Shown here: positions 2,618 to 6,466 of the stretch, piece by piece
Layout of the letters: the number at the start of each line of letters is the position of its first letter
How positions within the stretch are numbered: position 1 is the first letter of the stretch
Source of the DNA: Betaproteobacteria bacterium
GTDB lineage: Bacteria; Pseudomonadota; Gammaproteobacteria; Burkholderiales; Burkholderiaceae_C
DNA: 64,000 bases
NCBI GenBank assembly: GCA_947453725.1
Contig: CANGHH010000006.1
Coordinates: 1-64,000, forward strand
Direction: 5' to 3'
Notes under the pieces: model-generated
The model's input: only the letters and a program-made list of their open reading frames with translations
Database searches by the model: none
Told to the model about the DNA's origin: nothing
Made by a program: the position numbers and the translations under genes

Positions 2618-5600
2618 ATGGACCAGAACACCGAGTACTACAACCAGAACGCCAGCGGCTTCTTCGTCTCCACGGTCGCCGTGGATATGTCGGCGCTGCA
2701 GGAGGCGTTTCTCGCCAAACTGCCAACCGGCGGTCGGATCCTTGATGCCGGCTGCGGATCAGGCCGCGACGCAAGGGCGTTTGCGGCCAGGGGCTTCGAT
2801 GTAACCGCATTCGATGCATCAAGCGCGCTGGCGAAACTCGCTAGAGAACACTGCGGCTTTGATGTCGCCGTGCGGGCCTTCTCCGATGTAGACGAGGTCG
2901 AGGCCTACGACGGCATCTGGTCGTGCGCCAGCCTGCTTCACGTCAATGCGCGGGAGATGCACAACACTATCGGCGGGCTTTGGCGTGCATTACGGCCCGG
3001 CGGTTGCTTCTATCTAAGCTTCAAGCTTGGAGCGGGCGAGCGCAGCCATGGCGGTCGACGCTTCACCGATGCGAACGACGCCACCCTGAGGGAATGGTTC
3101 GCGGCCCTGCCGCAGGTGTACGCGATCGAGACCTGGGTCACCCCCGACAATCGACCAGATCGCTCCGAGCAATGGATCAATGCGCTGGTAATTCGGTCGC
3201 CCAAGCCGCCCAGAAAGTTGGTTACTGGCGGCGCTGATCCGTTCCTGCCACATCTGTCGCAGGCGATGGCGCGGGCAACCGAAATCGATATCGCCGTCGC
3301 ATTTGTCAAGACCAGCGGCATCCGCTTGCTGTTGCCTGACCTGCTCGCGGCGCTGGAACCGCCCAACGACACCACCGCGCCAACCCGTCGCCTCCGGGTT
3401 CTCACCAGTGACTACCTCGACGTCACCGATCCAGCGGCGCTGCGACTGCTGTTGTTACTTCGCGACCAAGGCGGCGAAGTCCGGGTCTACGCGACGCAGG
3501 GAACCAGCTTTCATCTCAAGGCCTATGTCTTTGCCAGGGCCGTCAATGGCGAGCTGATCGAGGGCACGGCCTTCATTGGATCGAGCAACATCAGCCGGCA
3601 GGCACTGCAGGACGGGTTGGAGTGGAACTATGGCGTCGCCTATCCAGGCGATTTGGGCTTCCTCGAGGCGCGACAGCGCTTCGCTGAGTTGTTCGTGCAC
3701 CCTCGCACCGTTGCGTTGACCGACGGCTGGATCGACGACTACGAGCAGCGCCGCGTGCCCCCGCCGCGGGCGATCGCGCCGGGCAGCCAGGAACAGGATC
3801 CGCCACCTCAACCCACGTCCGTGCAAATCGACGCGCTCGAGGCACTTTCTGCTTCTAGAGCTTCAGGATTTACGCGTGGCCTGGTGGTGCTGGCTACCGG
3901 CCTGGGCAAGACGTGGCTCGCGGCCTTCGATTCCACGCGCATGGGCGCACGCCGCGTTCTTTTCGTAGCCCATCGCGAAGAGATATTGAGCCAGGCGGCG
4001 CAGACCTTCATTCGTATCCGTCCGAAGAGCCGGGTGGGCCTGTATAGGGGTCAAAGTCACGACGCCGAGGCGGACGTGTTGTGCGCCTCTGTCCAGACGC
4101 TGGCACGGACGGCACATCTGGAGCGCTTTGCGCCGCAGCACTTCGACTATGTGGTCATCGACGAGTTTCACCATGCTGCGGCAGCGACCTACCGTCGCCT
4201 GCTCGGGCACTTCGCACCTGCGTTTCTGCTGGGGCTGACCGCAACCCCCGACCGCACGGATCAGTCTGACATCCTGTCCCTGTGTGACGACAACTTGGTC
4301 TTCACGCGCAGTCTCTTCGAAGGCATACAGGCCAAGCTGCTAGCGCCGTTCCACTATCACGGCATCCTCGACGAGTCGGTCGACTACCGCGAGGTTCCGT
4401 GGCGCAACGGGCGGTTCGATCCCGAGCAGTTGTCGAACAAGCTGGCAACACTGGCCCGTGCGCGGCACGCCATTCGGGAGTGGCGTTCACGGGCGCAGCG
4501 GCGTACTTTGGCCTTCTGCGTTTCGATCAGACATGCCGAGTACATGGCATCGCAGTTTCAGAAGGCCGGCATTGCGTCGGCTGCGGTGTACGCGGGCTCA
4601 GCGCTGGGGCGCGCACAGGCGCTGGAGCAGTTGCGTGACGGCCAGCTCAGCGTGATCTTCTCTGTGGATCTGTTCAGTGAGGGCGTTGACCTACCCGGCA
4701 TCGACACGGTGATGATGCTGCGGCCGACCGAGTCGAAGATCCTCTTCCTTCAGCAACTCGGCCGGGGCCTGCGCCTCAGCGACGAGAAGGAAAAGCTCGT
4801 CGTTCTCGACTTTATCGGCAATCACCAGAGCTTCCTGCAGAAGCCGCAGGCGCTGTTCGGCGTGAGTGCGACCTACAAAGCGCTTGCCGCATTCGCGCGC
4901 AAGGCCGAACAGGGTCGGCTCGAGCTTCCGGATGGCTGCTACGTCAACTACGACCTGAAGGTCATCGAGTTCCTGAAGTCGCTGGATAGCGCGGGAACGC
5001 AGAAGGATTACGAAGCGCTGCGCGCCAGTCTCGGCCGGCGCCCTGCGCTGGCCGAGTTCTACCGCGCCGGTGCCAGCATCCAGGCGATGCGCCAGCAACA
5101 TGGCAGCTGGTTCGAACTTGTCGAGACCATGGGCGATCTTCAGGCGGACGAGGCGCGTGCCAGCAAGGCTCTCGGTGGATTGCTGCGCGAGGTCGAGGTC
5201 ACGCCCATGACCAAGAGCTTCAAGATGGTCCTGCTCGAAGCCTGGCTGGAGCTGGATGGACTGGTATCGCCGCCTTCGCTTGCAGACCTTGCGCAGCGGT
5301 CCTGGCAAGTACTGCATCGACGACGCGGCTTGCTCGGCGATCTGCCGCCAGCTATCGCTGAGCTGCCCCATGGGCATGGCGACATCTGGATCCGCTACTG
5401 GCGCGACAACCCGATCAACGCTTGGGTGGGCGGCAACCGCGCTGCGGCCACCTCGGCATTCTTTCGTGTCGCGGACGATCGGCTCGCGCTCGCCCAGCCG
5501 CTGGCGGCTGAAGAGGTCCCGGCCGCAGAGGAATTACTCCAGGAGCTCGCGGCCTACCGGCTCGCGACCTACGAGGTGCGTCGTCCCGTCGATATTGAAG

Positions 5601-6466
5601 CTTCGAACGTCATCCCGTTCACGCCCAAGCAAAGGGCGGAAGTCGAACTGCCTTACTTCCCGAACCTGAAGATCGCTTGCGGGCACTTTCGCGCGGGTCG
5701 CACCGACGCCGAGGAGCACCGCAACTTGCCAACGGCCTACGGCAAGTTGGACGCGACCCGGCACTTCATCGCGCGCGCCTCGGGGGATTCGATGGACGGC
5801 GGCAAAAACCCCATCCGCGATGGCGACTACCTGCTGCTGGAACTGCTCAGCCCCAGCAATGCCGGGTCGATCACCGGCACGGTCATGGCGATCGAACGCC
5901 AAGACGAGACAGGCGGTGACAACCAGTACCTCCTGCGCGTGGTCACCAAGACCAAGGACGGCAGCTACATCCTGAAGGCCAACAACCCTGACTACGAGGA
6001 CTTGCGAGCGACCGACGACATGCGCACCCTGGCGCGGCTGAAGGCGGTGGTCGACCCGCTCGATCTGGTGGTCGGACAGCCCATAGCGCGCGAGGACATC
6101 CCGGCGCTGTTCGGCGAGTCATTCAACCCCGGCAGTTGGAACGTCGGGCATGTCGTGCTGAACGACAAGAAGGTGCACGTCCTGCTGGTGACCTTGAATA
6201 AGCAAGGCAAGGCGGAAGAACATCGGTACCACGACCACTGGATCGACGAGCACACCTTCCACTGGCAGAGTCAGAACGCGACGACGCCGGCAAGCAAGCG
6301 AGGTCAAGAAATCATCGGGCACGCGGCGAAGGGCATCGCCATTCACCTCTTCGTGCGCGAAACCAAGCTGCTGGGCGGCAAAGCCGCTCCCTTCGTCTAC
6401 CGCGGCCGAGTCACCTACCAGTCACATCTCGGGAGCAATCCGATGAGCGTGACGTTCAAGCTTTAG
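2618..6466 (+). CDS. SAM methyltransferase-PLD nuclease-SF2 helicase-S24-DUF3427-like multidomain protein
   Basis: The product is 1282 residues from ATG 2618; the frame is open upstream to 2501, but 2618 begins the methyltransferase. Domains: class I SAM methyltransferase, 1-195 (motif I DAGCGSG at 43-49); PLD-type nuclease, about 205-365 (H299-x-K301, GSSNIS at 321-326); SF2 helicase, about 400-740 (Walker A TGLGKT 427-432, DEFH 515-518, TAT 541-543, motif VI QQLGRGLR 712-719); linker, 750-1005; S24/LexA-like fold, about 1010-1140 (GDSM 1056-1059); DUF3427-like end, about 1160-1282. PLD-helicase-DUF3427 proteins are known and often sit near defence genes; the fused N-terminal methyltransferase looks unusual. 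The methyltransferase resembles TehB-like small-molecule enzymes and lacks an obvious DNA-methylase NPPY/DPPY motif. It is flanked by decayed DNA, suggesting transfer. A defence role is inference. Confidence 0.85.
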   Translation: MDQNTEYYNQNASGFFVSTVAVDMSALQEAFLAKLPTGGRILDAGCGSGRDARAFAARGFDVTAFDASSALAKLAREHCGFDVAVRAFSDVDEVEAYDGIWSCASLLHVNAREMHNTIGGLWRALRPGGCFYLSFKLGAGERSHGGRRFTDANDATLREWFAALPQVYAIETWVTPDNRPDRSEQWINALVIRSPKPPRKLVTGGADPFLPHLSQAMARATEIDIAVAFVKTSGIRLLLPDLLAALEPPNDTTAPTRRLRVLTSDYLDVTDPAALRLLLLLRDQGGEVRVYATQGTSFHLKAYVFARAVNGELIEGTAFIGSSNISRQALQDGLEWNYGVAYPGDLGFLEARQRFAELFVHPRTVALTDGWIDDYEQRRVPPPRAIAPGSQEQDPPPQPTSVQIDALEALSASRASGFTRGLVVLATGLGKTWLAAFDSTRMGARRVLFVAHREEILSQAAQTFIRIRPKSRVGLYRGQSHDAEADVLCASVQTLARTAHLERFAPQHFDYVVIDEFHHAAAATYRRLLGHFAPAFLLGLTATPDRTDQSDILSLCDDNLVFTRSLFEGIQAKLLAPFHYHGILDESVDYREVPWRNGRFDPEQLSNKLATLARARHAIREWRSRAQRRTLAFCVSIRHAEYMASQFQKAGIASAAVYAGSALGRAQALEQLRDGQLSVIFSVDLFSEGVDLPGIDTVMMLRPTESKILFLQQLGRGLRLSDEKEKLVVLDFIGNHQSFLQKPQALFGVSATYKALAAFARKAEQGRLELPDGCYVNYDLKVIEFLKSLDSAGTQKDYEALRASLGRRPALAEFYRAGASIQAMRQQHGSWFELVETMGDLQADEARASKALGGLLREVEVTPMTKSFKMVLLEAWLELDGLVSPPSLADLAQRSWQVLHRRRGLLGDLPPAIAELPHGHGDIWIRYWRDNPINAWVGGNRAAATSAFFRVADDRLALAQPLAAEEVPAAEELLQELAAYRLATYEVRRPVDIEASNVIPFTPKQRAEVELPYFPNLKIACGHFRAGRTDAEEHRNLPTAYGKLDATRHFIARASGDSMDGGKNPIRDGDYLLLELLSPSNAGSITGTVMAIERQDETGGDNQYLLRVVTKTKDGSYILKANNPDYEDLRATDDMRTLARLKAVVDPLDLVVGQPIAREDIPALFGESFNPGSWNVGHVVLNDKKVHVLLVTLNKQGKAEEHRYHDHWIDEHTFHWQSQNATTPASKRGQEIIGHAAKGIAIHLFVRETKLLGGKAAPFVYRGRVTYQSHLGSNPMSVTFKL

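Follow-up and report, generated by a model that had tools for sequence, protein, structure and literature searches.

A methyltransferase joined in one chain to a SauUSI-type nuclease, and the exchange of its nuclease partners

The window analysed here, 64,000 nucleotides of contig CANGHH010000006.1 from a betaproteobacterium (assembly GCA_947453725.1), carries a gene (2618–6466, + strand, as are all features below) whose product of 1282 amino acids joins a class I S-adenosylmethionine (SAM) methyltransferase, a PLD-family nuclease, an SF2 ATPase, a coupler region, an S24/LexA-like domain and an SRA-like domain. Sequence comparison gave good support for assigning the core of this protein to the SauUSI type of type IV restriction enzymes. 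Relatives of its methyltransferase were found beside unrelated DNA-cutting enzymes, a partnership which suggests a little-noticed modular form of phage defence. In the reading we prefer, to which we give slightly under even chances, a SauUSI-type enzyme directed against modified DNA works with an exchangeable, probably nucleotide-acting partner enzyme.

Domain architecture and the SauUSI-like core

The reading frame, delimited by the open frame, Pfam and homologues, opens with the ATG at 2618 and continues uninterrupted up to the stop codon at 6464–6466, and the start is plausible in that residue 1 is the alignment start for many homologues. Pfam matches above the cut-offs were obtained for Methyltransf_25 (residues 41–129), ResIII (399–546), Helicase_C (623–720), Peptidase_S24 (1019–1137) and DUF3427 (1150–1270), and PLDc_2 (258–337) scored marginally below its cut-off (25.4 vs. 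27 bits). Pfam, PADLOC and NCBIfam together recovered the methyltransferase, PLD nuclease, SF2 helicase, S24 and the C-terminal part of DUF3427. A preliminary description of the window, made from the letters alone, had read all of these parts and their catalytic motifs in a single polypeptide, and both points held. In 37 of 37 aligned rows, including one Pseudoalteromonas locus whose separate methyltransferase and nuclease were joined for alignment, the PLD residues H299, K301 and N324, the Walker residue K431, D515/E516 and the methyltransferase residues G45, G47, D66 and H108 were invariant.

A one-genome-per-species scan yielded 60 loci, 40 of which encoded methyltransferase, PLD, helicase, S24 and SRA domains in one frame. 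With the window and locus L090, the intact one-frame loci numbered 42, loci duplicating a genome or a sub-stretch being excluded from this and the other tallies. The 41 besides the window encoded proteins with 59–80% identity to that of the window, in beta-, gamma- and alphaproteobacteria. An assembly error behind residues 1–195, which the preliminary description had considered, can be set aside because the fusion recurs in one frame in these 41 other loci; nor is the methyltransferase always a separate housekeeping gene, as it is separate in many species but mostly adjoins a nuclease. A cyanobacterial copy (L060) had every domain, split over two frames. The distribution was patchy, with a full-length match in 2 of 300 members of the order (window genome counted) and one more broken by a contig end. 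In comparisons with two homologues, the ratio of nonsynonymous to synonymous substitution rates (dN/dS) was 0.23 and 0.17 for the methyltransferase, the fastest part although under purifying selection, 0.07–0.17 for the helicase, coupler and PLD domains, and 0.03–0.07 for S24 and SRA, the slowest.

The PLD-family nuclease domain (residues 203–395; 3224–3802), with H299, K301 and N324, was identified by PADLOC, the family alignment and the Pfam match just under the cut-off. It is followed by the SF2 helicase-like ATPase (residues 396–760; 3803–4897; Pfam and family alignment), the coupler region (residues 775–985; 4940–5572; family-alignment profile and the SauUSI domain order as given in PMC7913695) and, after the S24 domain, the SRA-like target-recognition domain formed by the C-terminal DUF3427 (residues 1150–1282; 6065–6463; Pfam, the SauUSI match, Foldseek and family alignment). 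The best PADLOC models were those of type IV mREase_IV (E 4.9e-120), covering the protein from residue 209 on, and the C-terminus aligned with residues 805–917 of SauUSI (7clg; E 1.4e-8). The PLD residues, the SF2 ATPase after the nuclease and the C-terminal SRA-type domain are all as in the S. aureus type IV enzyme SauUSI, which has the same order of PLD nuclease, SF2 ATPase, coupler and SRA-type domain; judged by position, the coupler region is probably equivalent to the helical coupler of SauUSI. SauUSI has neither an N-terminal methyltransferase nor an S24 domain, both of which are present in the window protein; its SRA domain recognises the target, and S-5mC-N-G-S DNA is cut by translocation and shredding (PMC7913695).

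The first Foldseek matches to an AlphaFold model of the S24 and SRA domains (mean pLDDT 82.6) included lambda CI and SauUSI (SauUSI fold, E 4e-5), followed by weak matches to the SRA proteins SUVH6, KRYPTONITE and MspJI (E 0.009–0.06). The SauUSI pocket residues D858 and W868 correspond to D1206 and W1216, invariant in 36 of 36 rows with an SRA domain, and F841 and I842 are Leu and Val in the alignment to 7clg. By analogy with SauUSI, cleavage by the window protein would depend on modified DNA.

Two known groups of systems share part of this make-up. DISARM and other PADLOC systems also combine methyltransferase, PLD and helicase, but of DISARM's own models DrmD alone matched the window protein, weakly and at the level of the helicase (E 0.0014), and the others gave nothing at E up to 0.01. 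Type IIG (RM.BpuSI) and type ISP (LlaGI) enzymes, like the window protein, have a methyltransferase, a nuclease and, in type ISP, a helicase in one chain. They carry DNA-adenine methyltransferase motifs, a target-recognition domain and non-PLD nucleases, whereas no DNA-base methyltransferase motif was seen in the conserved columns of the window family. The preliminary description had regarded the architecture as undescribed, and full-text literature searching, to which most subscription papers were closed, turned up no account of it. Within the literature thus searchable, the core is of a known kind, whereas no precedent was met for the fusion, for the pattern of exchange described below or for the Arg-type S24 domain.

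The methyltransferase domain (residues 1–193; 2618–3196; METHYLTRANSFERASE) was assigned by Pfam, PDB sequence search, AlphaFold2 and Foldseek. AlphaFold2 predicted a confident class I fold (pLDDT 95.4), and the nearest solved structure was the uncharacterised RPA2492 (3e23; Foldseek TM 0.90, 33% identity; PDB sequence search E 1e-38). RPA2492 stands alone, however, and its sequence match ends at residue 162, leaving the conserved RP..R.E.W.N end of the window family outside the comparison. Further structure matches were small-molecule and peptide methyltransferases and, by sequence, also a tRNA methyltransferase; a viral structure search gave only general methyltransferases among the matches listed. 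A reading as a DNA-base methyltransferase was rejected: no (N/D)PP(Y/F) or PC motif was seen by eye in the conserved region around 'W.CASLLH' of the family alignment, and Pfam found no DNA-methyltransferase family in the window protein. Among defence models the domain strongly matched only PADLOC mad2 (53 bits), presumably part of a methylation-associated system. Kinship with mad2 was not accepted, as the match is probably a generic SAM-fold match because a methyltransferase of another subfamily (L091) scored equally.

The S24/LexA-like domain (residues 1010–1142; 5645–6043) was assigned by Pfam and by Foldseek matches to lambda CI (2hnf), LexA and UmuD, with which it shares the fold including the cleavage-site region. 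Cys1021-Gly1022 (5678–5683) aligned with the Cys-Gly of UmuD (8gmt, E 0.045) that we take to be its cleavage site; this pair and Ser1058 (5789–5791), at the nucleophile position, were present in 53 of 53 S24 domains, the Ser also in 37 of 37 alignment rows. Where the autoproteases of the LexA, UmuD and lambda CI kind have a catalytic Lys, the window-type domain has Arg1107 (5936–5938), again in 53 of 53 domains, a column set by hhalign to host LexA with a probability of only 14%; it is joined to nucleases and not to the DNA-binding domain of a repressor. Of the Ser-Lys dyad of S24 autoproteases, the Ser is thus kept and the Lys is replaced by Arg. Two HNH-S24 proteins had the same S24 residues.

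An S24-only survey of 295 genomes (the order of genome G314) found the domain 20 times, in 19 genomes. Eighteen of these matches belong to a nuclease or helicase with a methyltransferase in the same chain or next to it (in G314, one of a different subfamily), and two are fragments of 78–79 amino acids. Among S24-bearing helicase entries at all loci, 60 of 64 were found by script with a methyltransferase (the window sub-stretch L231 excluded); in the other four the methyltransferase was in interrupted pieces (L118, L129), the locus lay at a contig end (L013) or the N-terminal half was missing (L052). The domain occurred in all three partner contexts, with PLD-helicases, HNH nucleases and another SF2 helicase. 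In these surveys the Arg-type domain turned up in such proteins or as fragments and nowhere else, and it would put the LexA fold to a novel use. An assumption of mutual dependence between S24 and methyltransferase proved only half right, as six loci have the methyltransferase without S24. The third carrier is an SF2 helicase (L183:2078-4996) in which S24 is truncated in this frame; its N-terminus resembled by eye a Vsr/DUF559-type PD-(D/E)XK nuclease, a family that Pfam did not report. Remnants of Arg-type S24 of about 78–115 amino acids without a nuclease were seen in L232, L233, L252 and L253, the third of which adjoins a SauUSI-like gene.

Exchange of nucleases and of the partner enzyme

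A methyltransferase tree was built by a quick method from 84 rows, comprising those of at least 165 bits plus 26 fused rows left after thinning at 80% identity. The 26 fused rows and one cut-off contig formed a single clade (SH-aLRT 97), so that one fusion event suffices, and at least seven changes of nuclease type were needed among the paired rows. The exchange can be followed at a Pseudoalteromonas locus. Strains CuT4-3 (L067) and HL-AS1 (L144) largely share the upstream region (67–90% DNA identity, with one gene kind extra in HL-AS1) and have methyltransferases of 78% identity, followed by unrelated nucleases (PLD-helicase-S24 vs. HNH), after which similarity returns at 78–84%. Strain HL-AS2 (L222) has an ABC-F gene, the methyltransferase and a downstream stretch in common with that locus. 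It looks as if the nuclease was replaced beside a constant methyltransferase, which makes this locus a natural experiment on the role of the methyltransferase.

The same association was seen in surveys with single domains. The methyltransferase alone matched in 66 of 398 genomes of the phylum, with 10 matches scoring at least 170 bits. Two of these were fused (the window and G467) and seven adjoined a nuclease-type gene, encoding a PLD-helicase-S24 protein (G617, G456), another SF2 helicase with S24 (G506), an HNH nuclease (G561, G542, G372) or an HNH-S24 protein (G437). Among the 56 lower-scoring methyltransferases, none of the 14 fetched with flanks (5 kb where the contig allowed) showed a profile match to such a nuclease within the fetched stretch, and 20 with short flanks, 10 of the 14 included, were all alone among those listed. 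These distant methyltransferases of the same broad kind (below 146 bits), not linked to nucleases in the loci examined, may be housekeeping enzymes. In the plasmid collection 66 records matched the methyltransferase, and 13 of the 17 loci examined had an HNH nuclease; a query with the whole protein added three plasmid loci, one with a fused copy cut short (L068) and two with the methyltransferase beside a PLD-helicase (L067, L149). Conversely, all 11 records matched by the HNH nuclease with at least 90% coverage in Pseudoalteromonas, Marinomonas and Acinetobacter had the methyltransferase in the locus. The gap was at most 320 bases in nine of them, two with an interrupted methyltransferase (L226, L227), and 3.6–7.8 kb with intervening genes in L221 and L274. 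Separate methyltransferase genes often overlapped the gene of their partner, be it a PLD-helicase, an unrelated HNH nuclease or another SF2 helicase.

Three side observations concern these pairs. In L221:5760-9000 and L274:1395-8959 hypothetical-protein genes lie between methyltransferase and HNH, as if the pair flanked a cargo insertion site. L130–L132 represent a compact two-gene form, in which the methyltransferase gene overlaps that of a PLD-helicase lacking both S24 and SRA. Methyltransferases of the same family, without such a nuclease, are also carried by contigs that are catalogued as viral (L202, L205, L207–L212; 21–258 kb); L211 also has, by eye, ThyX-like and thioredoxin-like genes, and the viral copies perhaps serve counter-defence or DNA hypermodification.

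The place of the methyltransferase is itself taken by other enzymes. A HIT domain occupied it in six loci (L056, L058, L059, L066, L071 and L094, by profile; Pfam PF01230 in 3 of 3 checked), and a MazG domain in two (L072, L073), just over the Pfam cut-off (24.5 and 23.0 vs. 22 bits). HIT and MazG enzymes act on nucleotides. The HIT relatives, such as L058 from Planctomycetaceae, were the nearest relatives of the core among PLD-helicases lacking the methyltransferase (41–48% identity); five of the six have SRA in the frame, but HIT replaces the methyltransferase and S24 is absent. A HIT gene also preceded an HNH nuclease in two plasmids, overlapping it in Aromatoleum and 43 bases upstream in Polaromonas CJ2; in the stretches of these two high-coverage betaproteobacterial HNH records no methyltransferase of this family was found. 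In L047, 1.4 kb separates a HIT gene of the nuclease-partner type (L047:4980-5360) from a fused methyltransferase copy downstream. MutT homologues occur beside SauUSI homologues, according to PMC7641849.

In a helicase tree, 48 rows formed a clade tagged with partner enzymes (SH-aLRT 89), 45 of them with an identified enzyme: methyltransferase in 36 (14 fused and 22 adjacent, one of the latter, L091, of another subfamily), HIT in six, MazG in two and, unlabelled on the tree, the methyltransferase next door in L149. Of the other three, L062 and L013 start at or no more than 150 bases from a contig end, and the N-terminus of L069 was unassigned. In the other 40 rows, which are SauUSI-like, neither a HIT domain nor a methyltransferase of at least 50 bits, in the chain or up to 400 bases away, was present; the search for MazG covered the N-termini of six of these rows. 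The tree took 14 fused rows, and long branches make the placement of L206 and L072/L073 unsure.

Proposed function and alternatives

In the preferred reading, the C-terminal SRA domain would recognise incoming DNA by a modified base, most probably a cytosine derivative, after which the SF2 ATPase would translocate and dimerised PLD domains would cut; the enzyme probably shreds foreign modified DNA. The methyltransferase would most likely act on nucleotides or a nucleotide-related small molecule and not on DNA bases by sequence, either sparing host DNA from attack by the nuclease, by keeping modified nucleotides out of it, or spoiling the modified-nucleotide supply of the phage. The partner is probably nucleotide-acting because three enzyme types share one slot and two of them are known to act on nucleotides. 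The S24-like domain may be a regulatory or dimerising module that couples methyltransferase and nuclease, its self-cleavage presumably being slow or nil with Arg for the catalytic Lys. A wider and more doubtful proposal is a modular defence class in which a nucleotide-acting enzyme (methyltransferase, HIT or MazG) polices the modified pool beside exchangeable nucleases for modified DNA (PLD-helicases with or without SRA, HNH nucleases or another SF2 helicase), with the Arg-type LexA-like domain as a link and the window protein as the form with everything in one chain. Such a partner slot would tie DNA restriction directly, and in a testable way, to nucleotide chemistry, and touches on how modification-dependent nucleases spare their host and how cells respond to phages with modified DNA.

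The company kept by relatives of the gene points towards defence, as the preliminary description had supposed. Methyltransferase-HNH pairs stood at the head of BREX loci (L223, L227), and other pairs near WYL and McrC genes (L226), a type I-F CRISPR system (L142) or an ABC-three-component system (L067). Neighbours of 15 fused loci matched 52 PADLOC families among 102 proteins vs. 6 among 85 control proteins from 17 arbitrary stretches (three of the 20 drawn did not exist), these being counts of families, several of them overlapping, and not of proteins. The comparison excluded L032 and L048, with 7 of 109 neighbour proteins, for which a different gene had been taken as the centre. The 25 of the 52 families listed include Lamassu, Mokosh and defence reverse transcriptases.

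Several observations count against the preferred reading. The window copy is outside any evident defence island, and the neighbourhood tally is one of partly overlapping families. In the SRA pocket Y831 of SauUSI is replaced by His1178, one HIT relative (L059) has no SRA in its frame, Pfam found no SRA in HNH partners, and in six loci with the methyltransferase (L126, L128, L130, L131, L132 and L206) S24 and SRA are both absent; because these six PLD-helicases and the HNH partners are without SRA, recognition of a modified base through an SRA domain can hold for part of the module's members at most. For the methyltransferase, sharing a slot with HIT and MazG need not mean sharing their job. 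Partnership was also incomplete. One of the ten close methyltransferases (G622) and four of the 17 plasmid loci (L140, L146, L147, L229) had no nuclease by profile alongside, L140 and L146 showing merely weak HNH-profile matches on the opposite strand. Two untagged helicases come close to being exceptions: L148 is followed, after 476 bases, by a methyltransferase paired with HNH, and L104, after about 130 bases, by a frame that scores 41 bits as methyltransferase-like.

The preliminary description had proposed a self-contained defence or modification system. Its restriction-type core stands, but a DNA-modifying component was not borne out by motif or Pfam family, and a restriction–modification-like system is one of several readings. 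In that reading, which we consider unlikely, the methyltransferase sets an unusual mark on host DNA with non-classical motifs and the nuclease cuts DNA lacking or carrying it. It would fit the many loci in which methyltransferase and nuclease are fused or encoded side by side, often with overlap, the viral copies without nuclease, reminiscent of orphan protective methyltransferases, and the mad2 match, if it is more than generic. No classical motif was seen in the conserved region, however, and no such family was found by Pfam. Sequence-matched protection also fails to explain why a single methyltransferase family is paired with nucleases unrelated to each other, at one locus as well as between loci; HIT and MazG, which take the same slot, are incapable of marking DNA by methylation.

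Equally improbable in our view is that the methyltransferase regulates its partner, methylating or binding the nuclease or S24 and silencing it until infection or DNA damage, much as in a toxin–antitoxin pair. Its fold resembles peptide N-methyltransferases such as NTMT1 (TM 0.68), it co-occurs with S24 in three contexts, and it stayed constant while the nuclease differed at the Pseudoalteromonas locus. S24 cannot be its sole target, however, because nucleases without S24 are also paired with it, and neither HIT nor MazG is easily a protein modifier; LexA boxes were not enriched in 49 upstream regions. A role in DNA repair or the damage response instead of defence is very improbable: the helicase matched the RadD/YejH model (E 9e-31, yet with 107 bits vs. 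a cut-off of 720), the S24 fold matched LexA and UmuD, and a protein annotated as SOS response-associated peptidase adjoins one HIT-HNH pair, but the distribution is patchy (2 of 300 order members full-length), type IV restriction was the best family with an SRA domain present, neighbours lie in BREX, McrC and CRISPR loci, and SOS boxes were not enriched.

Surroundings of the window gene

Control of the gene by the SOS response was rejected. Upstream of 49 fused genes no exact LexA box was found, boxes with one mismatch numbered 8 vs. a shuffle mean of 6.2, and in the window genome exact LexA-type boxes numbered 9 vs. 10 for a reversed-pattern control, none of them at the window gene. The window neighbours tested were metabolic or regulatory (TfoX_N, glyoxalase, TetR, TctC, an FAD monooxygenase and a hydrolase). 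Decayed mobile DNA, which the preliminary description had placed next to the gene, did not emerge: the three open frames within 1436–2590 gave no Pfam family above the cut-off and one chance-level match (E 0.078), and 1650–2617 had no similar DNA in the plasmid collection, the one collection searched. The window gene and the plasmid copy L068 each have a TfoX-family gene nearby, a link that was dropped because the two TfoX-family genes are not similar at 1e-8. Elsewhere the window genome holds a SauUSI-like PLD-helicase without the methyltransferase (L002; G000:C16:25975-27660), which has 37% identity and falls in the untagged part of the helicase tree.

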